Shown here piece after piece: positions 7,380-25,594 of a stretch of 64,000 nt of DNA (position 1 is the first letter of the stretch; the number at the start of each line of letters is the position of its first letter). The notes under the pieces were generated by a model. That model made no database searches. It was not told where the DNA came from and saw only the letters and a list, made by a program, of their open reading frames with translations. The stretch covers positions 1,178,001 to 1,242,000 of the forward strand of contig NZ_CP100762.1 of the NCBI RefSeq assembly GCF_024296665.1, written 5' to 3'. This DNA is from Salinilacihabitans rarus. GTDB lineage: Archaea > Halobacteriota > Halobacteria > Halobacteriales > Natrialbaceae. The position numbers and the translations under genes were made by a program.

Positions 7380-10300
7380 CTACAGCGGCGTGAACGGCAC
7401 CGCCGCGAGCGAGTCGGCGTCGTAGGCGAGCGCCTCGGACTGGTCGACGCCCGCTGGCGTCACGAGGTCGACGATCCGCGGGGCGTTCTCGACCGCGCCC
7501 TCCGTCGCGCCGCCGAAGACGAAGGCGCCGGCCTCGACCCGAACGGGGCGGAACGCGCCGAAGTCCTCGGAGCCGACGACCGGCAGCACCTCGGCGGCCT
7601 CGAAGTCGACGTCCGCGAGCAGGTCCTTCCCGACCGACGCGACGACGGTGTCGCCCTCGAAGTCGACGAACGTCTCCGGCGTCCCGAGGTCGGTCCCCTC
7701 GGCGTCGACGACCCCCGAGTCGAAGCCGTTGACGTCGATCCGGTAGTGCCACTCCTCTTCGAACTCGACGGTGACGTTCAGGTCGCCGAGTTCGGTCGTC
7801 CGGCCGCCCTCCAGCGAGGGGTCGCGCAGGTAGAGGACGAAGTAGTGTGGCGAGAACTCGCCGCCGAAGGCGTCGTAGAGGCTCTCGACCTCGAAACTGA
7901 ACAGGTACGACGCCTCGTCCTCGTAGACGCCGACCGAGCGGAGGTCGAACGCGCCCTCCCGGAACGCGTCGTCGGTCGGGTAGACGTACTCGCCGGGGCC
8001 GTGGTCGTCGCCGCTCGGGTCGTCGAGTTCGGCGACGACGTCCCCCGGCGCGACGGTGACGGTCTCGGCGGCGAGGACGGCGCCGTCCTCGGGGTCGCGG
8101 ACCGCGACCTCGTACGTGCCGAGGGAGTCGAGCGTGTAGCTCAGCGCGACCGTCTCGTCGGTCGCCCCCGGCGGTAGTCGGACGTTGTCGACGACGGCGA
8201 GGTCGCCGTCGACTTCGATCTCGACCGTGGTGCCGCCGACGTAGTCCCCGTCGTTCGAGCCGGTGGCCGTGACGAACCGCTCGCCCAGCCCGGGTTCGGC
8301 CTCGACGTCGAATTCGAGGTCCTGCTCCGGGCGCTCGTAGGCGGGCAGGTCGCGTCGCTCCCGTCCCCGCGCCGGGCGGAGGCGGACGGCGGTCCCGCCG
8401 CTGGGAGCCGTCGACGCGAGCAGCGTCGTCCCCGGGTCGACGACCGCCTCGTCGATCCTGACGGCTTCGAGGTCGGCGTCGACCCCGCCGCCGATGCCGT
8501 CGGAGTAGATCTCGGCGACGTACTTCGGCCCCTTCGGGCCGTTCCCCGGGGCGTCCCCGGACTCGCCGGCCGCGAGGAACTCGAGGGGGACGTCGATCGC
8601 ACGCCCGCCCTCGTCGGTCATCGCGCCGACGTACCACTCCTCGCCGGCCCGTCTGGCGACGACCGTGTAGTCGCCGATCGCCGAGTCGACGACCCGCGTC
8701 TCGTCCCAGCCGGCCGCCGGGACGGCCTCGATGAAGTCGAACTCGGGTACCGTCTCGAAGTTCTCGTTTTCGGGCTCGTAGCCCTCGTACTCGGCCGGCA
8801 GGGGCGACGGCTCGCCGTGCTCGGTCACCGCAACGGCGTTTACGTTGAAGCCGCCGACGTCGCCCTCGAACCCGTCCGAGTCGTCGTAGCGCAGTTCGAC
8901 GGCGACCTCGTTGTCGCTCGCGTCGAGTTCGATCTCGGTCGTGAACACGGCCCAGTCGTCCCAGTACTCCGTGAACTCGGGCGTGATCGTCTCGGTCGCC
9001 TCGTTCACCCGCAGGGTCGCCCGCGGGCCGCCGGCGTCGATCACGCGTTCGGCGTTGTCCCGTGGCGCGCTCGCGTAGCGCAGGTGGAGGTCGTAGGTAC
9101 CCGCCTCCGGGACGTCGCGGACGACGAACGAGACCGACGACCCGCTCGGCGCCCGGTTGGGGTCGACCGCGACGTAGTTCGTCCCGAAGGCGTCGCGCCA
9201 CTCGTCCTCGGTGACGAGGCCGTCGACGTCGCCGGCGGCGGCGTGGAGGACCTCGCCGACCGCGAACGTCTCGTCGACGTAGGCCTCGATCCGGTCGGCG
9301 ATCATCTGGAGGCCGCTGAGATACGTCGGGTACATCGCGAGCTGTTTCGCCCGCGTCGTCTGGACCTGCCCGCCCCGGTCGTCGGTGAACGTGAGGTCGA
9401 AGATGCCGGGCTGGAAGCTCGTCGGCCCGGCGAGCATCCGCGTGAACGGGAGCGTGACGTGGTGGTCCCGGCCGAGGGTCGACGCGAGGTAGCCGAAGCC
9501 GTCGAACTCCTGTGCCCGCACGACCTCGCGGTTGGCCACGTTGGGGTAGGTGCGGATCTCACCGGTGGGCTTGATCCCCTCGTGGATCTCGAGCAGCTTG
9601 CGGTTCGTCGCGGCCGCCCGGATGACCAGCCGGTGGTGGTTGACCGCAAGCTGGTTGTGCTGGTTGTGCGTCGGCTCGCGCCCGTCGTCGGCCTCGTCGA
9701 GGCCGAGCCCCGGGTCGGAGACGTAGCCGTTCTTGATCGAGCGGACCCCGAGGTCCTCGTACTCGGCGAAGACGTCGTCCTCGGTGATCTGGCGCTCGTA
9801 GTTCGGGAGCGCCCCGGCCGTCTCGTTGTGCATCGTCATCTCGACCGGCGCGTCGAGGTCGCGCCCGAACGCGGTGACCTCGCGGACGTCGAAGTCCGGG
9901 TAGGAGTCGTCGACGCCGAACTCCATGCCGGTGCCGTCGCCGGGGAAGGTGTCCCAGCCCTCGTTCCAGCCCTCGACGAGTACGCTGTCGACGCCGTTCT
10001 CGCTCGCGAACGCCATGTACCGCTTGGCGCGCTCGGTCCGGGCGCCGTGGACGTAGCCGGCCGCTTCCTCGGGGCTGGCGAACGCCTCGTCCGGCAGGTA
10101 CTCCCACTCGGCGGAGCCGGCGATCATCGTCCACCAGACGCCGACGTACTTCCGGGGCTCGATCCAGTCGACGTCCGGTTCGCCGTCGACGCTCGGGAAC
10201 GCCGACTCGTCGAGCGGGTCCGCGAGCAGCGGGAGCAACTGCGACTCGATCAGGTCGCCCGGGCGCGTCCCGACCTGAATCGTCCGCCACGGCGTCGCGT

Positions 10301-11201
10301 GTGGCGTCGCGAGCGACGCCTTCGTCCCGTCGGGCAGCGGCGTGAGTTCGACGTCGAGCGTCGTCCCGCCGGCCGACCGGGGCGCGAGCGTCGCCGACGC
10401 GTAGTCGTCGAGGTTCGCCTCGTGGACGCTCAGGTAGACGCCGTCGTCGGTCCGCACCGTAAGCGGCGTGTGCGCGCCGTCGCGGACGGGCGTGCCGGTC
10501 GGCCGCGTCTCGCGGGTGCCGGCCGGAATCTCGCTCAGCGGCGTCTCCGCGTACTCCTGTTCGAACCGCGGGTTGACCACCTCGTTGCGAATCCACCACG
10601 CCGTGTAGTCGCCGGCGAACGCGAACGCGGTGTTCTCCGAGGTGAGCACGGCCCGGTCGGCGTTGCTCGCGAAGCCGTCGCCGAGGACGAACCGGAAGCC
10701 CAGACCGTCGTCGAAGACCCTGATCTCGAGGTTCGCCGACCGGCCGGGGCCCTCGGCCTCCGCCAGCCCGAGGGTCAGCGACTCGTAGTCGGCCGCGACC
10801 CGGTCGAACTCGCCCCAGACCGGCTCCCACGTCTCGGTCTCGGACGCGCTTTCGCTCCCGGTCACTTCGATCGGCGATCCGTCGGCGCCGTCGGCCGAGG
10901 CGCCGAACGGCGGCTGGTTCCGGAAGTCGAAGCCGAGCGTCGACGGCTCGACGCACGTCGTCCCCTCGCAGGTGACGGCGTACGTCGGCGTCCCGTCCGA
11001 GACGTCGACCGTCACCGCGAGCGAGCCGTCGGGCGAGGCGACGCGCTGGACGTCGCCGTCGGCGGCGTTCGTCACCCGTGCCGCCATCTCCGCCGGGACC
11101 GGCCGCGCGTAGGCGGCCGCCGCCAGCGCCGACGCCGCCCCACCGAGGAACCGGCGCCGGTTCGACCGTCCGAACGTGTGGTGTGATTGTTCGTCACACA
11201 T
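7380..11201 (-). CDS. Tat-exported multidomain glycoside hydrolase, family GH97
   Basis: About 1273 residues, much longer than a typical GH97 (about 650-700). The N-terminus has a twin-arginine signal (SNRRRFLGGAASALAAAAY). A beta-sandwich GH97_N domain (about 45-330) precedes the barrel starting near YVGVWWTMIAGSAEW. Family motifs are MTMHNETAGALPNYE, IHEGIKPTGEIRTYPN and FTRMLAGPTSFQPGIFD. A CBM-like beta-sandwich of about 130 residues (EAGTYDLHLRYAS...) sits before the GH97_C part (AVPAAGWDETRVVD, WYVGAMTDEGG). The last 230 residues resemble the DOMON-like C-terminal domain of glucodextranase-type enzymes. Expected activity is extracellular alpha-glucoside or alpha-galactoside hydrolysis; linkage is not assignable. 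No transporter is adjacent. Confidence 0.87.
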   Translation of the reverse strand: MCDEQSHHTFGRSNRRRFLGGAASALAAAAYARPVPAEMAARVTNAADGDVQRVASPDGSLAVTVDVSDGTPTYAVTCEGTTCVEPSTLGFDFRNQPPFGASADGADGSPIEVTGSESASETETWEPVWGEFDRVAADYESLTLGLAEAEGPGRSANLEIRVFDDGLGFRFVLGDGFASNADRAVLTSENTAFAFAGDYTAWWIRNEVVNPRFEQEYAETPLSEIPAGTRETRPTGTPVRDGAHTPLTVRTDDGVYLSVHEANLDDYASATLAPRSAGGTTLDVELTPLPDGTKASLATPHATPWRTIQVGTRPGDLIESQLLPLLADPLDESAFPSVDGEPDVDWIEPRKYVGVWWTMIAGSAEWEYLPDEAFASPEEAAGYVHGARTERAKRYMAFASENGVDSVLVEGWNEGWDTFPGDGTGMEFGVDDSYPDFDVREVTAFGRDLDAPVEMTMHNETAGALPNYERQITEDDVFAEYEDLGVRSIKNGYVSDPGLGLDEADDGREPTHNQHNQLAVNHHRLVIRAAATNRKLLEIHEGIKPTGEIRTYPNVANREVVRAQEFDGFGYLASTLGRDHHVTLPFTRMLAGPTSFQPGIFDLTFTDDRGGQVQTTRAKQLAMYPTYLSGLQMIADRIEAYVDETFAVGEVLHAAAGDVDGLVTEDEWRDAFGTNYVAVDPNRAPSGSSVSFVVRDVPEAGTYDLHLRYASAPRDNAERVIDAGGPRATLRVNEATETITPEFTEYWDDWAVFTTEIELDASDNEVAVELRYDDSDGFEGDVGGFNVNAVAVTEHGEPSPLPAEYEGYEPENENFETVPEFDFIEAVPAAGWDETRVVDSAIGDYTVVARRAGEEWYVGAMTDEGGRAIDVPLEFLAAGESGDAPGNGPKGPKYVAEIYSDGIGGGVDADLEAVRIDEAVVDPGTTLLASTAPSGGTAVRLRPARGRERRDLPAYERPEQDLEFDVEAEPGLGERFVTATGSNDGDYVGGTTVEIEVDGDLAVVDNVRLPPGATDETVALSYTLDSLGTYEVAVRDPEDGAVLAAETVTVAPGDVVAELDDPSGDDHGPGEYVYPTDDAFREGAFDLRSVGVYEDEASYLFSFEVESLYDAFGGEFSPHYFVLYLRDPSLEGGRTTELGDLNVTVEFEEEWHYRIDVNGFDSGVVDAEGTDLGTPETFVDFEGDTVVASVGKDLLADVDFEAAEVLPVVGSEDFGAFRPVRVEAGAFVFGGATEGAVENAPRIVDLVTPAGVDQSEALAYDADSLAAVPFTPL

Positions 11202-11297
11202 GGTCGCCAACGGACCACGCGGCGACAGGTAAAACTAGCGGACGTTTCGATCGGCAAACGGGACGGCCGCCGGCGTCCCGGGAGTCGTGGACGGGAC

Positions 11298-14490: not shown

Positions 14491-15468
14491 TCACCCGCGC
14501 TCGCGTACGTCCGCGCCGGCGGACGCCGGCGCCGAGAGGAGTACCTCGCCGGCACAGCCGAGGTCGTCGAGCGCGTCGGCGGCGGCCGCCCGCGCCTCCG
14601 CGGCGTGGTCGGCGTCGGTGAGGCCGTAGACGACGGGGCCCCACGAGGACTGGCCGACGCCCGAGACGACCGGACACGCCGAGAGCGCCTCGACGAGTTC
14701 GCCCGCCGGCGGGCGGAACAGCCCGCCCTGCGCGTCGGCGTACCACGCGCCGTTCTTGCGGCCGATCTCGGCGGCCGCGGCGCCGAACGCCTCCAGCCGT
14801 CCCTCCGCGGCGGCGGGCAACAGTTTCCGGGTGAGCGCGCCCGCTATCTCGTCGGCGACGGCGGGGTCGGCGTCCTCGACGACCGCGCGCATGCTCGCGT
14901 CCTCGTCCTCGCCGCTGCGGCCGGGGTCGGCCTCGGGGACGACGACGAGGAAGCGCCACGACGAGGGCAGGTCGTGGCGGGCGACGACCGGCGGCACCGT
15001 CCAGTCGCCCTCTCGCGGGGGTTCCGTGGTGAACCGGCCGGTCGGGTGGCCCGCGTCGACGACGAACCCGCCGGCCTCGAAGGTGGCGACGCCGACGCCG
15101 CTGCGCCCGCCGCGACCCAGCGCCGGCGCGCGCTCGCGGGCCCGCGGGTCGCGGCCGTGGGCGCGTGCGGTCGCCGCCAGCACCGCCAGCGCGAGTTGCG
15201 TCCCCGAGCCGAGACCGACGTGGCGCGGGAGCCGCCGGTCGAGCGAGACCGCGACGCCCGGCACGTCGAGGCGGTCGACGGCGCGGGCCGCGTACTCGCG
15301 GGCGAGCGGGTCGTCGGCCTCGACGCCGTCGGCGGGGTCGGCGCGGACGGTCACCCGGGGCTCCTCGAGGCCGACGCCGATCCCGCCGTAGAGCCGTTCG
15401 CGCGCGAGCGAGAGGTTCTGGAAGCCGACGTGCAGCCGCGCGCCCGCGCTGACCGTGACCGTCGCCAT
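14491..15468 (-). CDS. mptG: Beta-ribofuranosylaminobenzene 5'-phosphate synthase family protein
   Basis: A 325-residue GHMP-kinase-fold protein. SAGARLHVGFQNLS at the N-terminus and RHVGLGSGTQLALAVLAA (the GHMP glycine/serine loop) match beta-RFAP synthase. That enzyme joins PRPP and p-hydroxy- or p-aminobenzoate at the first committed step of tetrahydromethanopterin-type C1-carrier synthesis. C-terminal motifs include CPVVSGVGQSSWGPVVYGL. Haloarchaea are not methanogens; some carry homologues linked to modified folates, so the exact product is uncertain. Confidence 0.85.
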   Translation of the reverse strand: MATVTVSAGARLHVGFQNLSLARERLYGGIGVGLEEPRVTVRADPADGVEADDPLAREYAARAVDRLDVPGVAVSLDRRLPRHVGLGSGTQLALAVLAATARAHGRDPRARERAPALGRGGRSGVGVATFEAGGFVVDAGHPTGRFTTEPPREGDWTVPPVVARHDLPSSWRFLVVVPEADPGRSGEDEDASMRAVVEDADPAVADEIAGALTRKLLPAAAEGRLEAFGAAAAEIGRKNGAWYADAQGGLFRPPAGELVEALSACPVVSGVGQSSWGPVVYGLTDADHAAEARAAAADALDDLGCAGEVLLSAPASAGADVRERG

Positions 15469-15578: not shown

Positions 15579-16322
15579 ATGGACCTCGTGACGGCCCTCG
15601 GCGCCGACGCCGGGACGACCTGCGTCGTCGGCGCCGGCGGGAAGAAGACGACGCTGTACGAACTGGCCGGACGGCTCGACCGCGCCGTCGTCACCTCGAC
15701 GGTCCGGATCCCGATCTTCGACGAGCACGTCGCCGAGGTGCGGGTCGCGGCCGACCCCGTCGCTGCGGTGGCCGACGCGGAGTCGTGGCCGCTGGGGCTG
15801 GTCCCGTCCCGGGACCGCGAGGACCGGTACGCGGGCTACGACCCGGCGACCGTGGACCGACTCGCCCGCGAGGGCGACGCCGAGCACGTCCTCGTCAAGG
15901 CCGACGGCGCGCGGACGCGCCTGCTGAAAGCCCCCGGCGACGCCGAACCGCAGGTGCCGCGGGCGGCCGACGCCGTGCTGGCGATCGCGAGCGTCGACGC
16001 CGTCGGCCGCCCGCTGGCGGCGGCACACGTCCACCGCCCGGAGCGCGTCGCGGCCGTCACCGGCCGGTCGCTCGGGGAGCCGATCGAACCCGCCGACGTC
16101 GCGGCCGTCCTGACCAGCCCCGAGGGCGGCCTGAAGGGCGTACCGGAGGGGGCGACCTACGTCCCCGTGCTCAACGCAGTCGACGACGACGCCGCCCGCG
16201 AGGTCGCCCTCGACGTGGCAGACCGGATCCGCGACGCCGACGCGGCGGCGGCCGGCCGCGTCTCGCGGGTCGTCCTCGCGAGCATGATCGCGCCGGAGCC
16301 GCTGGTCGCGGTCGTCGACTGA
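15579..16322 (+). CDS. yqeC: YqeC-family selenium/molybdenum cofactor maturation protein
   Basis: A 247-residue protein with a P-loop-like CVVGAGGKKTTLYELA (residues about 16-31), STVRIPI, then LVKADGARTRLLKAP and TSPEGGLKG, the conserved blocks of YqeC. In bacteria YqeC goes with selenium-dependent molybdenum hydroxylases and is thought to load selenium or act late in cofactor maturation. Here it precedes an AOR homologue and a formate-dehydrogenase-like gene and lies with mobA, so a Mo/W cofactor role is favoured. Start ATG at 15579; it diverges from the beta-RFAP synthase gene. Confidence 0.8.
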   Translation: MDLVTALGADAGTTCVVGAGGKKTTLYELAGRLDRAVVTSTVRIPIFDEHVAEVRVAADPVAAVADAESWPLGLVPSRDREDRYAGYDPATVDRLAREGDAEHVLVKADGARTRLLKAPGDAEPQVPRAADAVLAIASVDAVGRPLAAAHVHRPERVAAVTGRSLGEPIEPADVAAVLTSPEGGLKGVPEGATYVPVLNAVDDDAAREVALDVADRIRDADAAAAGRVSRVVLASMIAPEPLVAVVD

Positions 16323-16365: not shown

Positions 16366-18201
16366 ATGGGACGAGCGCCCGCGCCCTCGCCGGCGCCCGA
16401 CGTCGTGCGAGTCGACCTCGGAGACGGCTCGGTCGCCCGCGAGCCGATCCCGGAGCGTCGGCGCCGGCGGTTCCTCGGCGGGAAGGGGCTTGCCGCCCGC
16501 TACCTCTACGACGACGTCGGGCCGGGCGTCGACCCGCTCGCGCCGGGGAACGCCCTCCTGTTCGCCCTCGGCCCGCTCTCCGGGCTCGTCCCCGGCGAGC
16601 CGCGGGTCGCGGTCGTCACGAAGTCGCCGCTGACCGGCGCGTTCCTCGACTCCTACTGCGGCGGGACGGTCGCCGCGCGCCTCCCCGGCGCGCTCGGGGC
16701 GACCGTGCTGTCGATCACCGGGCGGGCGCCGGAGCCGACGGCGCTCGTACTCGACGCGGGCGAGGTCCGCCTCCGGAGCGCGACCGACCTGTGGGGCGCG
16801 GACGCCCGGGCGACCGACGAGGCGTTCCCGGACGCCGCGGTGGCGTGTGTCGGCCCGGCCGGCGAGAACCGCGTCCGGTACGCGACGATCGCCGCCGACG
16901 GCGGCGACCACCACGCCGGCCGCGGGGGCGCCGGCGCGGTGATGGGGGCAAAGCGGCTCAAGGCGCTCGTCGTCCGCGGCCCGCCGCCGGACGAGCGCCT
17001 CGCGGACGCCCCCGCCGCCGTCCGCGAGTTGCGCGCGCGCACCCGCCGCCGGTTCGCCGAGTCGGAGACGGGCCGGTGGCTCGGCGCGAGCGGGACGATG
17101 GAGACGATCGACGCCGCGGACGAGGCGGGCGTGTTGCCGACCCGGGGCTGGCGACGCGGCTCGTTCGAGGGCGCCTCTGACCTCGGCATCGACGCCGTCC
17201 GGGAGGCGAGCGCGGGCCGCGAACGGCCCGCCGACTCGACGCCCGGCGACTTCCGGGTCGCGGGCCGGGACGGCGAAGTGGTCCCCCGCGGGGGGACGCC
17301 CATCGCCCTCGGGGCCGGCCTCGGCATCGGCGAGTTCGACGCCGTGGTCGAACTCGGGGAGCGTTGCGACCGTCTCGGCCTCGACGTGATCGGCGCCGGG
17401 AACGCCGTCGGGTGGGCGCTCCGTGCCGCCGAGGAGGGGTCGCTCGACCCCGCGCTCCTCGACGGCGTCGCGGACGGGGCGACCTTCGGCGACCCCGAGA
17501 CGGCGCGGGCGCTGATCGACGCGGTCGCGACACGGGAGGGGCGCCTCGGCGACGCGCTGGCCGACGGCGTCGCGGCGGCCGCGGACCGCCTCGGCGCGGC
17601 CGACCTCGCGCCGACGATCAAGGGGATGAGCCTCGCCTCGTACGACCCGCGGGGCTCGCCGGCGATGGCGCTGGCGTTCGCCACGAGCGACCGCGGCGCC
17701 TGCCACCGGCGTGCCCGCCCGGTCTTCCGGGAGGCGGTCGACGGCCGCGGCTGGTCCGACGCCGAGCGGGTCGCGACCGTGCGGGCCGAGCAGGACCGCC
17801 GGTCGGTCCGCTGGTCGCTGGTCGTCGACGACTTCGTCGGCGAGGTACTCGACGACGACCTCGTCGCGGCGTGGCTCGCGGCGGTCGGGGTCGACCCCGA
17901 CGGCGACCTGCGGACGGTCGGCGAGCGAGTGTGGACGCTCACGCGCCTCGTCAACGTCCGGGAGGGGTTCGACCGCGCGGACGACTCGCTGCCGGCGCTG
18001 CTCACCGACGGGCGCGAGGACGGGACCGGGCGCGGCCTCGACGGCGAGGCGTTCGACCGGCTGCTGTCGGCGTACTACGCGGCGCGAGGCTGGAGCGAGG
18101 ACGGGATGCCGACGGCCTCGCTGCTCGACCGGCTGGGGCTCGGGTCGGTCGTCGACGCGGCGACGCCGGTCGCCCGCGACCGGCCGGCGCGGGACGGCTG
18201 A
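16366..18201 (+). CDS. Aldehyde ferredoxin oxidoreductase family protein lacking the Fe-S cysteines
   Basis: A 611-residue AOR homologue. Kept: FLGGKGLAARYL near the N-terminus, AVVTKSPLTGAFLDSYCGG, GRGGAGAVMGAKRLKALVV, CDRLGLDVIGAGNAVGWAL (about 334-352) and DRGACHRRA, all bispterin-tungsten/molybdenum contact regions. Missing: the CxxCxxxC at the usual position is replaced by A-D-S-T-P-G-D-F (residues 289-296), and the distal fourth cysteine is absent around VVDDFVGEVLDDD. Only four cysteines exist, all scattered. Known AORs pass electrons from the pterin through this [4Fe-4S] cluster to ferredoxin, so this protein must use another acceptor or another chemistry. It lies 43 bp after yqeC and 117 bp before the molybdoenzyme gene. 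Confidence 0.85.
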   Translation: MGRAPAPSPAPDVVRVDLGDGSVAREPIPERRRRRFLGGKGLAARYLYDDVGPGVDPLAPGNALLFALGPLSGLVPGEPRVAVVTKSPLTGAFLDSYCGGTVAARLPGALGATVLSITGRAPEPTALVLDAGEVRLRSATDLWGADARATDEAFPDAAVACVGPAGENRVRYATIAADGGDHHAGRGGAGAVMGAKRLKALVVRGPPPDERLADAPAAVRELRARTRRRFAESETGRWLGASGTMETIDAADEAGVLPTRGWRRGSFEGASDLGIDAVREASAGRERPADSTPGDFRVAGRDGEVVPRGGTPIALGAGLGIGEFDAVVELGERCDRLGLDVIGAGNAVGWALRAAEEGSLDPALLDGVADGATFGDPETARALIDAVATREGRLGDALADGVAAAADRLGAADLAPTIKGMSLASYDPRGSPAMALAFATSDRGACHRRARPVFREAVDGRGWSDAERVATVRAEQDRRSVRWSLVVDDFVGEVLDDDLVAAWLAAVGVDPDGDLRTVGERVWTLTRLVNVREGFDRADDSLPALLTDGREDGTGRGLDGEAFDRLLSAYYAARGWSEDGMPTASLLDRLGLGSVVDAATPVARDRPARDG

Positions 18202-18267: not shown

Positions 18268-18318
18268 TACCCTCCGTCCGACCAAAGACTCATGACGCTA
18301 TTGAACCGTCTAGTACGT

Positions 18319-20403
18319 ATGGGAGCAGACGAGCGCGGCGTACACACGATCTGTCCGTACTGCGGTGTCGGCTGCGGGCTCACGCTCCAGCCGGGCGACG
18401 AGGACGGCGAAGTCTCGTTCGCGCCGTGGTTCGACGCGCCGGTCAACGAGGGCCCCCTCTGCGTCAAGGGGAGCACCGCGACCGAGGTCGTCGACCACGA
18501 GGATCGGCTCACCGAACCGCTGATCAGGGAGGGCGACGAGTTCCGCGAGGCGACGTGGGAGGAGGCCCTCGGGCGCGTCGTCGACGAACTCGACCGCGTC
18601 CGCGAGACGTACGGGCCCGACGCGGCGGGCTTTTTCGCCTCCTCGAAGGTGACCAACGAGGAGAGCTACCTCGTCCAGAAGCTCGCACGCCGGTACGGGA
18701 CCAACAACGTCGACAACTGCGCGCGGCTCTGTCACGCCTCGACGGTGTACACCCTCCGGAACAGCCTCGGCGCCGGCGCGATGACGAACAGCATGCAGGA
18801 CCTGCGCGACGACGCCGACGTCTTCTGGATTCAGGGGGCGAACCCCGCCGAGCAGCACGTCATCGCCCACAGCAAGTACTTCCGGGCGGCCGCACGCGAC
18901 GGCGCGACCGTCGTGCAGGTCGACCCGCACGTGAACAAGACGAGCGACGACGCCGACCTGCACCTGCAGCTCAAACCCGGCACGGACATCCCCCTGCTGA
19001 ACGTCGTCCTGAAGACGATCATCGACGAGGGGCTGTACGACGAGGAGTTCGTCGAGGAGCGGACGCGGGGGTTCGACCACCTGCAGGCGACGCTCGCAGA
19101 CCTCGACGTCGAGGCGGCGGCCGAGACGTGCGAGGTCCCCCTCGAAAAGATCCGGGAGGCCGCACGCATCTACGCGGAGGCCGACAGCGCCGCCATCTTC
19201 ACGGGCATGGGGATGAGCCAGCACACCTGCGGCGTCGACAACGTCCAGAACGAGGTGAACCTCGCGCTGATCACGGGCAACCTCGGCCGCCCCGGCACCG
19301 GGGTGAACCCGCTGCGGGGCCAGAACAACGTCCAGGGGACCAGCGACGTGGGCGCGCTGCCGAACGTGTTGCCGGGCTACCTCGACGTCGAGGACGACGA
19401 GGCGCGCGCGTCCGTCGAGGAGGTCTGGGACTTCGAGGTTCCGTCCGAACCGGGGATGACGAGCGTCGAGATTTCGAACGCGCTCGGCGAGGACGTCCAC
19501 GCGCTGTACGTCGTCGGCGAGAACCCGGTGATGAGCGAACCCGACGCCACCGCGGTCGAGCGCCGCATGGAGGACCTCGAATTCCTCGTCGTCCAGGACA
19601 TCTTCATGACCGAGACGGCCGAGTTCGCCGACGTCGTCCTCCCGGCGACGTCGTGGGCCGAACGCGGCGGGACGGTGACCAACACCGACCGCCGGGTCCA
19701 GCGGATGCGCCCCGCCACGACGGTCCCGGGCAACACCCGCCACGACCTCGACATCCTCCGTGCGGTCGGCACGCGGCTGTTCGGCGAGGGGTTCGACTTC
19801 GACGGCCCCGAGGCGGTCTTCGAGGAACTCAGGCAGGTCGCGCCGATCTACCACGGGATCACCTACGAGCGCCTCGGCCACGAGGGCCTGCAGTGGCCCT
19901 GCTACGACGAGGACGACGAGGGCGACCTCTACCTCTACGCCGACTCCTTCGACACCGAGGACGGCCGCGGCGTGATCCGGGGCGTACGCCACCAGGATCC
20001 CGCCGAGGTCGAGGACGAGGCGTTCCCGCTGCGGCTCACCACGGCCCGCATCGAGGAACACTACAACACCGGGACGATGAGCACGCGGTCGCCGACGCTC
20101 GTGCGCCGCACCTCCGAGAACTTCGTCGACATCCACCCCGCCGACGCCGCCGAACGGGGGATCGAGGACGGCGACTACGTCGCGGTGCGGACGCGCCGCG
20201 GCGAGATCGTTCTGGAGGCGAACGTCACCGAGGACATCGCTGAGGGGTCGATCTGGACGACGCCGCACTTCTCGGACGCTCGCGCGAACACCCTCACCAA
20301 CGACGTGCTCGACCCGCTCGCGAAGATTCCGGAGTACAAGGCCGCGACGGCGGAGGTCGAGCCGATCGAGGGCGGCGAGGAGGCCGGCACGGCCGACGAC
20401 TGA
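18319..20403 (+). CDS. Formate dehydrogenase alpha subunit-like molybdopterin oxidoreductase
   Basis: About 694 residues of the DMSO-reductase superfamily. The N-terminal [4Fe-4S] motif ICPYCGVGCGL plus the downstream GPLCVKG is intact. NCARLCHAS supplies a Cys ligand to Mo/W where other formate dehydrogenases have Sec. Further motifs are GANPAEQH, GMGMSQHTCGVDN, RGQNNVQG and ENPVMSEP. The C-terminal ADAAERGIEDGDYVAVRTRRGE is the molydopterin-binding barrel. An ATG at 18292 is also in frame, but its codons (CTA, TTG, CTA, GTA) are unlike the gene's usage, so the ATG at 18319 is preferred. No beta or gamma subunit or fdhD is adjacent; formate is the likely substrate but unproven. Confidence 0.85.
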   Translation: MGADERGVHTICPYCGVGCGLTLQPGDEDGEVSFAPWFDAPVNEGPLCVKGSTATEVVDHEDRLTEPLIREGDEFREATWEEALGRVVDELDRVRETYGPDAAGFFASSKVTNEESYLVQKLARRYGTNNVDNCARLCHASTVYTLRNSLGAGAMTNSMQDLRDDADVFWIQGANPAEQHVIAHSKYFRAAARDGATVVQVDPHVNKTSDDADLHLQLKPGTDIPLLNVVLKTIIDEGLYDEEFVEERTRGFDHLQATLADLDVEAAAETCEVPLEKIREAARIYAEADSAAIFTGMGMSQHTCGVDNVQNEVNLALITGNLGRPGTGVNPLRGQNNVQGTSDVGALPNVLPGYLDVEDDEARASVEEVWDFEVPSEPGMTSVEISNALGEDVHALYVVGENPVMSEPDATAVERRMEDLEFLVVQDIFMTETAEFADVVLPATSWAERGGTVTNTDRRVQRMRPATTVPGNTRHDLDILRAVGTRLFGEGFDFDGPEAVFEELRQVAPIYHGITYERLGHEGLQWPCYDEDDEGDLYLYADSFDTEDGRGVIRGVRHQDPAEVEDEAFPLRLTTARIEEHYNTGTMSTRSPTLVRRTSENFVDIHPADAAERGIEDGDYVAVRTRRGEIVLEANVTEDIAEGSIWTTPHFSDARANTLTNDVLDPLAKIPEYKAATAEVEPIEGGEEAGTADD

Positions 20404-20446: not shown

Positions 20447-21082
20447 GTGCCCACCCACCGATCGCTCGCGGGGGTCGTCCTCGCGGGCGGCTACTCGACC
20501 CGGTTCGGCGAGCGCGACAAGGCGGTCGCCGACCTCGCCGGCACGCCGATGATCCGCCGGGTCGTCGACCGCGTGGGCGAGGTGACCGACGCGGTCGTCG
20601 TCAACTGCCGCGAGGAGCAACGCGACCCGATCGCGGCGGCCCTGGACGGATGCGAGCCGACGGTCCGGTACGCGCTCGACCCGGTCCCCGACCGCGGCCC
20701 CGTCGCCGGCATCCGGACCGGCCTCTCGGCGACCGACCGGGAGTACGCCGCCGTCGTCGCCTGCGACATGCCGTTCGTCGACCCCGCGCTGCTCGACCGG
20801 CTGTTCGAGCGCGCCCGCGCGGCGGACGCCGACGCCGCGGTGGTTCGCCTCGACGACGGCTGGCTCCAGACCACGCAGGCCGTCTACCGGCGCGAGCCGA
20901 TGCGGCGGGCCTGCGCGACGGCACTGGCCGAGGACGGGCGGATCGTGACGGCGCTCGCGGAGATCGACCCCGTCGTCCTCGAAGGCGACGACCTCGACGG
21001 TCTCGACGGCCGGACGTTCGAGAGCGTCGACACGGAGGCGGCCCTCGCCGAGGCGGAGGCCCGACTCGGGGCGGTCGAGTGA
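20447..21082 (+). CDS. mobA: Molybdenum cofactor guanylyltransferase
   Basis: A 211-residue nucleotidyltransferase. The N-terminal VVLAGGYSTRFGERDKAVADL is the GTP-binding signature (LAGGxSxRxGxxK) of MobA. VRYALDPVPDRGPVAGIRTGL and VACDMPFVDPALLD follow, the latter with the metal-binding Asp. MobA attaches GMP to molybdopterin to make the bis-MGD form used by DMSO-reductase-family enzymes such as the gene just upstream. Start GTG 20447 agrees with the TATA position. Confidence 0.92.
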   Translation: MPTHRSLAGVVLAGGYSTRFGERDKAVADLAGTPMIRRVVDRVGEVTDAVVVNCREEQRDPIAAALDGCEPTVRYALDPVPDRGPVAGIRTGLSATDREYAAVVACDMPFVDPALLDRLFERARAADADAAVVRLDDGWLQTTQAVYRREPMRRACATALAEDGRIVTALAEIDPVVLEGDDLDGLDGRTFESVDTEAALAEAEARLGAVE

Positions 21083-24454: not shown

Positions 24455-24985
24455 CGGCCCCGCCTCCCGGTCTCCAGTCCCGACGTCATTCTTCGATGCA
24501 TTCGGTGACTGCCTCGCGGTATGAATCCATCGACACGTACCGACCCGTCCGCCACGCGACCGCTGGGCCACCCTCGGCGCCACCGTTCGAATCCCTCTCC
24601 CAAATATAGGAATTTATAGAGTATGGGGGAATGGTAAGAATACATATACTACGAGCCAGAGTCGAGAGCGTCACGGATTCGAGCGGGAACCGCCCGGCTC
24701 GGCCGTCGGCTCGCGCCACGGCTGGCCTCGTCTCGTCGCTTTGCGGTCGTCTCGGTCGGCTACAGCCGACCGACTCGCTCCCTTCCTCTCGCCGCGGCGC
24801 GCCGGTGAGCGCCCGGTCCGATTCGATCCGGGGCCCGGCGGTCGTCGTCATATAAGTTCACAGCCATGATACGGTATCTGTAACGGACCTACGTCGGACC
24901 CGCCGGCCGACCCCGGCAGCGCCCCCCGCTCGCGGCGCGTCGCCGGTGCGAAACATTTGTAGCGGTCTCGTCTGTTTGAGTGGGT
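24455..24985. other. Intergenic region with divergent AT-rich promoters, no convincing gene
   Basis: About 530 bp between trkH and rdfA. The core at 24600-24655 is AT-rich (ccaaatataggaatttatag, then gaatacatatactacg) and carries TATA-like elements for both strands. Short ORFs here have poor codon usage. A minus-strand frame ending at 24486 with MDSYREAVTECIEE looks protein-like over about 30 codons and could be a remnant, but has no support beyond that. Confidence 0.4.
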
Positions 24986-25594
24986 ATGGCGGACGAATCG
25001 GGGCGACGGCGGCGCACGAAAGTCGAGCGGGTGATCGACGCGTACGACCTCGACGGGTGGGGCGAGCGACTCGAGGCCGCGTGGCTCGGCGAGGGGCGCG
25101 AGCGGACGAGTCTCCGGGACCTCGCGCGGGAGTTCAACCTCGCCGTGCTCCGGGCGGCGCTGCGCGAGGCCGGCGAGTCACCGATCGACGCGGACGTCGA
25201 GAGCACCTACCGGATCCTCACCGACGACGACGTCAGCCGATCGGACGAAGTGCGAAAGCGCCGCGAACTCGAACGCGCGGGCGTCGACGTCGACGGCGTC
25301 CTGTCGGACGTCGTCACCCACCAGGCGATCCACACCTACCTGACGGACGTCCGCGGGGCGGAACTCGACCGCGACGAGGAGGACCGACTCGACCGCAAGC
25401 GGGAGACGATCCAGCGCCTCGCGACCCGGACGCAGGTCGTCACCGCCTCGACGCTCGACGAACTCGTCCAGGCGGACCTGCTGACCGAGCGCAACTACGA
25501 CGTCTTCGTCGACGTTCGGGCCGTCTGCGGTCGGTGCGGAACCGACTACGCCGTCGACGACCTCGTCGAGCGCGGCGGTTGCGACTGCGAGTGA
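24986..25594 (+). CDS. rdfA: Rod-determining factor RdfA-like protein
   Basis: A 202-residue protein. N-terminal KVERVIDAYDLDGWGERLEAAW plus RTSLRDLAREFNLAVLR match the haloarchaeal RdfA family, in which Haloferax volcanii RdfA is needed for rod-shaped cells. A central helical stretch (ELDRDEEDRLDRKRETIQRL) leads to a C-terminal zinc-like element (VCGRCGTDY...CDCE). The helix with SLRDLAREFN resembles a DNA-binding or adaptor helix-turn-helix. It precedes the SMC-related ATPase by 66 bp on the same strand; this pairing recurs in haloarchaea as I recall. Start ATG 24986, two codons after an in-frame GTG. Confidence 0.8.
   Translation: MADESGRRRRTKVERVIDAYDLDGWGERLEAAWLGEGRERTSLRDLAREFNLAVLRAALREAGESPIDADVESTYRILTDDDVSRSDEVRKRRELERAGVDVDGVLSDVVTHQAIHTYLTDVRGAELDRDEEDRLDRKRETIQRLATRTQVVTASTLDELVQADLLTERNYDVFVDVRAVCGRCGTDYAVDDLVERGGCDCE

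Follow-up and report, generated by a model that had tools for sequence, protein, structure and literature searches.

The described proteins closest to the one reported here are the Class I (single-subunit) AOR/WOR enzymes, among them PfAOR (1aor) and Haloferax volcanii WOR83 (9q1t). The cysteine motif that binds their [4Fe-4S] cluster occurs in 99% of the proteins of the family, according to the AorAB structure paper (PMC10413684), and a 2026 classification found very little variation in the AOR/WOR cofactor and cluster ligands (PMC13328260). Glu313 is described as universally conserved and as a proposed catalytic base, with Tyr312 taking part in the proton relay (PMC12096430). On cluster-free AORs, the open-access literature that we found holds only the 99% remark, and the clade presented here is undescribed in it. 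Outside the family, DorA and TorA of the DMSOR family are bis-pterin enzymes in which the cluster close to the metal has disappeared; they kept their catalytic residues and work with a haem partner. NifEN, the nitrogenase cofactor scaffold, is an enzyme paralogue that was turned into a scaffold beside its client.

In this study, we examine a 611-residue protein of the AOR family that is encoded in a 64,000-nucleotide stretch of the Salinilacihabitans rarus genome (the window), together with its relatives, its gene neighbours and their co-occurrence across genomes (Table 1). The open reading frame is intact and starts with ATG. Both Pfam domains of the family, AFOR_N and AFOR_C, are matched above cut-off (E 6.3e-63 and 1.7e-85), nine distinct PDB sequences of the AOR/WOR/BamB type match the protein, and its AF2 model (pLDDT 94, pTM 0.94) has the full-length AOR fold, with a TM of 0.89 to the AOR/FOR structures 1aor, 1b25, 9mqx and 9g7j. 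Domains and fold are common to PfAOR, WOR83 and this protein, as are most of the pterin- and phosphate-contact motifs and the active-site Thr, Tyr and His. Judged by sequence and fold, the protein is a member of the AOR/WOR family; judged by the functional definition, which includes the cluster and Glu313, it stands outside. Four further AOR paralogues of the same genome (L001, L002, L004 and L005) have four cluster cysteines each.

Table 1. Features of the AOR-like gene and its neighbours (positions in the window)
Feature	Coordinates	Strand	Remarks
AOR-family protein lacking Glu313 and the [4Fe-4S] ligands	16366..18201	+	611 aa
RERPADSTPGDFRV, residues 285-298, where the CxxCxxxC loop would be	17218..17259	+	
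PRGG, residues 307-310, where the family-conserved PEYE (E311, Y312, catalytic E313) would be	17284..17295	+	
H447, equivalent of PfAOR active-site His448	17704..17706	+	His kept in the whole clade
D488, at the position of distal cluster ligand C494	17827..17829	+	invariant Asp
YqeC (TIGR03172), P-loop protein	15579..16322	+	43 bp upstream of the AOR-like gene
FdhA, formate dehydrogenase alpha subunit	18292..20403	+	90 bp downstream of the AOR-like gene
MobA-like molybdenum cofactor guanylyltransferase	20447..21082	+	MobA is the top NCBIfam match (97 bits), short of the equivalog cut-off

An earlier sequence-only reading had described an AOR-family protein with no [4Fe-4S] cysteines, only four scattered cysteines in all, ADSTPGDF in place of the CxxCxxxC site and no distal cysteine, and the alignment to PfAOR bears this out. 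The motif ADSTPGDF starts at residue 289, and the cysteines of the protein are C98, C161, C334 and C446. At the ligand positions, C288 corresponds to a gap or a non-cysteine, C291 to Asp, Glu or another residue, C295 to Gly and C494 to Asp, and none of the four ligands is present in this protein or in any of the 110 aligned rows of its clade. A cluster held by cysteines elsewhere was rejected: the clade-conserved cysteines 161, 334 and 446 are scattered, and C334 and C446 match cysteines that PfAOR also has and that are not ligands of its cluster. What the same reading had missed is that, unlike in PfAOR and WOR83, E311-Y312-E313 is replaced as well, PEYE having become PRG followed by Ala, Ser or Gly throughout the clade, with a Cys at E311 in one row. 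The pterin motifs that it named are present, CDRLGLDVIGAGN from residue 334 and DRGACHRRA from residue 442; it had also missed that the second pterin motif, DxxGLC (D489...C494), is replaced and now reads W...D. Ordinary aldehyde oxidation via the usual cluster is unlikely for this protein, because the cluster ligands and the Glu-Tyr-Glu segment are lost.

Relatives were searched in 125 genomes of the organism's own family and in 394 genomes of the phylum. These searches returned a compact group, about 52-64% identical, and a sister group at about 39-48%; in the first alignment, all 73 distinct proteins of the compact group lacked the four cysteines and the sisters had all four. An alignment-based scan of GTDB contigs added 80 named loci, each Cys-free one being haloarchaeal and each other one retaining all four cysteines, and no Cys-free relative outside Halobacteria appeared among the matches listed. 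In a tree of 131 rows, 75 of them Cys-free and 56 four-Cys, the former make up a single clade with an SH-aLRT of 100 and a long stem, nested inside the four-Cys AORs, so that one loss event is enough. Close pairs within the clade have dN/dS values of 0.10-0.25. The Cys-free AORs are a haloarchaea-specific clade under purifying selection, and the haloarchaeal group lacking all four ligands that the sequence-only reading had suggested looking for therefore exists (110 of 110 rows); neither cysteines placed elsewhere nor isolated degradation, both of which would have spoken against its interpretation, was found. Decay of an isolated gene, or a sequencing artefact, can be dismissed with near certainty, since the same replacements occur across many genera and families in intact reading frames with the dN/dS values given above.

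The nearest relatives of this clade are the haloarchaeal four-Cys sisters (L104-L116, L158). They share with it the HHAGRGG motif, an aromatic residue at D489 and a Tyr at N93, and differ from it in having all four cysteines and PEYE. Conservation was counted over 85 alignment positions with 90% conservation or more among four-Cys AORs, comparing 110 clade rows, some of them near-identical, with 65 four-Cys rows. The Cys-free clade keeps 64 of these positions, keeps 13 partly and has lost 8, namely the four cysteines, E311-Y312-E313 and N260. The new residues are themselves fixed (R308 in 109 of 110 rows, G309 and D488 in 110 of 110). Equivalents of the active-site residues T243 (73/73), Y427 (71/73) and H448 (73/73) are retained, and so are the AGRGG motif and most of the cofactor contacts, which the earlier reading had suggested checking: R76 and D343 are kept, D338 is kept in 66 of 73, R182 has become His, D489 aromatic and C494 Asp. 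Two of these changes, those at R182 and D489, are not specific to cluster loss because the four-Cys sisters already have both. Gone from the clade are the entire [4Fe-4S] site and the acid/base segment Glu-Tyr-Glu; the fold, the Thr, Tyr and His and the greater part of the pterin pocket remain. As read from the alignment, the AOR protein has lost its way out for electrons together with its acid/base residues, and its remainder is preserved.

Cys-free AOR genes associate with formate dehydrogenase (FDH) and with the cofactor genes MobA and YqeC, a context that separates them from PfAOR and WOR83. In the window, yqeC, the AOR-like gene, fdhA and mobA follow one another on the same strand with gaps of 43, 90 and 43 bp, and the FdhA (761 bits to TIGR01591, cut-off 666) carries the active-site Cys-His motif and a cluster motif of its own, CxxCxxGC. 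FdhA, YqeC or MobA is nearby at 66 of 83 distinct Cys-free loci, versus 0 of 16 loci of the four-Cys sisters. Taken singly, FdhA is found at 48 of the 83, YqeC at 37 (median distance 752 bp) and MobA at 22 (median 183 bp), all of these counts being lower bounds because the locus stretches are of unequal length; at 17 of the 83 loci, none of the three lies within the stretch read. The commonest directly adjacent same-strand partner is a DUF7124 paralogue, closely 3' of the AOR gene at 33 of the 83 loci, always on the same strand and at a median of 42 bp. This protein is unlikely to be an electron-transfer partner, as it has almost no cysteines itself, and no conserved electron-carrier gene was found beside the Cys-free AOR at the 83 loci. 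The other DUF7124 copy, distinct from the AOR-linked paralogue, is present in nearly all genomes of the family (a linked example is at L071, 8802-9626).

These neighbours bear on the possibility that the protein is still an ordinary aldehyde:acceptor oxidoreductase whose electrons pass from the metal directly to a docking partner, as in the cluster-free DMSO reductases. DorA and TorA resemble the Cys-free AOR in having lost a cluster near the metal and in the bis-pterin, which for the Cys-free AOR is presumed; their fold and family differ. The AOR fold and the retained pocket would suit such an enzyme. It is nevertheless very improbable, in that E311-Y312-E313 is lost in all clade rows apart from the single Cys at E311, E313 is described as universally conserved and catalytic (PMC12096430), and no electron-carrier gene is conserved alongside. 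The sequence-only reading had left a choice between a different electron path, a partner protein and a different reaction; a changed role or reaction is now favoured, and of these options aldehyde oxidation by another route ranks last because Glu313 was lost with the cluster, the DUF7124 protein is nearly Cys-free and the neighbourhood is one of FDH and cofactor genes. The same neighbourhood, together with the lost ligands and catalytic residues, would fit a cofactor-free pseudoenzyme that serves FDH as a structural or regulatory partner. We consider this unlikely, because an empty scaffold would need neither the His, Thr and Tyr nor the pterin- and phosphate-contact motifs, which are for the most part kept, and the Cys-free AOR is not fixed beside one type of FdhA.

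Co-occurrence was scored across the 125 genomes of the family, with FdhA called at E<=1e-150, as raw counts that ignore kinship. The Cys-free AOR is present in 62 genomes, accompanied by FdhA in 60 and by YqeC in 61 of them, and in the two carriers without a strong FdhA match (G103 and G106) the AOR gene has an FDH-like neighbour. FdhA is present in 94 of the 125 genomes, 90 of which also have YqeC and 34 of which have no Cys-free AOR. YqeC is found in 31 of those 34, and in 26 of these it lies no more than 6 kb from FdhA. Of 12 AOR-less FDH regions read, 7 have the order YqeC-MobA-185 aa protein-FdhA or one close to it, and in one genome (G104, L223) the order is YqeC-FdhA-MobA, which is that of the window without the AOR gene. 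Strict dependence of FDH on the Cys-free AOR was rejected on these grounds. The Cys-free AOR is an optional element of the haloarchaeal FDH module, dispensable for FDH since it is absent from 34 of 94 FDH genomes. The protein of about 185 residues, which has no Pfam match, is encoded between MobA and FdhA in numerous FDH modules of haloarchaea (for example L086, 8773-9435, and L216, 4859-5413) and is a further candidate for FDH maturation.

Halobacteria often have FDH without fdhD, and how cofactor insertion and sulfuration then proceed is unknown, according to a review (PMC10609526). Consistently, FdhD (PF02634) was found in 0 of the 125 genomes of the family; E. coli and three control archaea gave positive matches, and an overlooked FdhD was rejected on that basis. 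YqeC has been described with the selenium-dependent Mo hydroxylase system (PMC2276186). That system does not explain YqeC here, because SelD passes its cut-off in only 12 of the 125 genomes and the genome studied, with sub-cut-off matches only, is not among them; the idea that YqeC serves selenium metabolism there was rejected. The YqeC model is that of a P-loop NTPase, and its best match is the cofactor-delivery GTPase MeaB, a weak one (E 1.4e-3, TM 0.44). Usually next to FdhA even where there is no AOR-like gene, YqeC is a candidate for an FDH maturation factor that replaces FdhD, and a better-linked candidate for that replacement than the AOR-like protein.

Loss of the cluster and of the catalytic acid, in genes that usually lie beside FDH or cofactor genes, suggests that an ancient enzyme has been put to a new use in one-carbon metabolism. 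We propose that the Cys-free AOR serves the cofactor side of FDH biogenesis where the organism lacks FdhD, as a handler of the bis-pterin cofactor comparable to NifEN, and put the probability of this reading at about 0.38. The protein would still bind W- (or Mo-) bis-pyranopterin and would be unable to run the AOR cycle. It would hold or protect the bis-MPT metal cofactor, which would be passed on towards MobA, for guanylylation to bis-MGD, and towards FdhA, with YqeC as an NTPase helper. Its contribution would have to be an optional improvement to FDH maturation, because many haloarchaeal FDH modules are without the AOR. That an AOR-type tungsten enzyme was converted outright into a scaffold or chaperone for FdhD-free FDHs, the 'NifEN' of the W/Mo-bis-pterin world, is a more doubtful form of the proposal. 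The likeness to NifEN is one of proposed logic only, without homology to the Cys-free AOR, for which such a role is itself part of the proposal. FdhD, the FDH sulfurtransferase/chaperone, would have the handling of pterin cofactor for FDH as a common niche with the Cys-free AOR, and the two are not homologous by any match.

Slightly in favour of cofactor handling are the closeness of MobA and YqeC, the disappearance of the catalytic Glu and the lack of FdhD. In line with it are also the narrow pattern of loss (7 of the 8 lost positions being cluster ligands or E311-Y312-E313), the single, selectively maintained clade with its full AOR fold, the linkage and co-occurrence counts and the weak resemblance of the YqeC model to MeaB. 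Against it count the dispensability for FDH, the G104 gene order without the AOR, the better claim of YqeC to substitute for FdhD and the 17 of 83 unlinked loci; in addition, the retained Thr, Tyr and His, together with the newly fixed Arg308, suggest that some chemistry remains. This last point leads to an explanation that we regard as about equally likely, in which the protein is a genuine W- (or Mo-) bis-pterin enzyme that carries out altered chemistry in formate or C1 metabolism. Such an enzyme could be redox-neutral, or its metal could be re-oxidised by a small diffusible acceptor instead of the cluster, and the near-invariant Arg308, which replaces E311, might bind an anionic substrate (formate or another carboxylate) next to H447. 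The preserved T243, Y427 and H448 equivalents and the fixed R308 and G309 would be expected of it, its dispensability for FDH agrees with it, and C1-folate or betaine-demethylation type neighbours occur at 28 of the 83 loci. It is weakened by the loss of the general base Glu313 and by the lack of a conserved redox partner, the adjacent DUF7124 protein being almost without Cys, and it leaves the adjacency of MobA and YqeC unexplained.

On either account, a large natural clade in which the cluster ligands and Glu313 are both gone and the rest is intact offers a test of a bis-pterin site without its wire. The question of how FdhD-free organisms obtain a sulfurated cofactor (PMC10609526) is now testable, with the Cys-free AOR, YqeC, MobA and the protein of about 185 residues as candidates. 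The public annotation of the clade proteins, 'aldehyde ferredoxin oxidoreductase C-terminal domain-containing protein', probably misleads metabolic reconstructions. If the scaffold or chaperone reading is true, this would be the first member of the AOR family with a non-enzymatic, cofactor-handling role.

TorD-like, HdrA/FlpD-like and C1/betaine-type genes recur around the Cys-free loci. At 26 of the 83 loci, the strand opposite to the nearby FDH/AOR cluster encodes an HdrA-like protein (for example L071, 12163-14301) that contains an FlpD domain and numerous 4Fe-4S motifs; it is possibly the electron acceptor of FDH. Betaine and C1-folate catabolic surroundings were seen at L214 (pHTUR02), L215 (Halobellus limi) and L090; the genes in these loci include BCCT transporters, a dimethylglycine-dehydrogenase-like protein, SHMT and formate-THF ligase. 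In the window, yqeC adjoins a gene at 14491-15468 (-) for a GHMP-kinase family protein related to beta-RFAP synthase of the methanopterin pathway, which scores above the TIGR00144 subfamily cut-off and below the equivalog cut-off. The window also encodes a large glycoside hydrolase of family GH97, whose C-terminal module is of the glucodextranase type, at 7380-11210 (-), and the haloarchaeal cell-shape protein RdfA (rod-determining factor A) at 24980-25594 (+).
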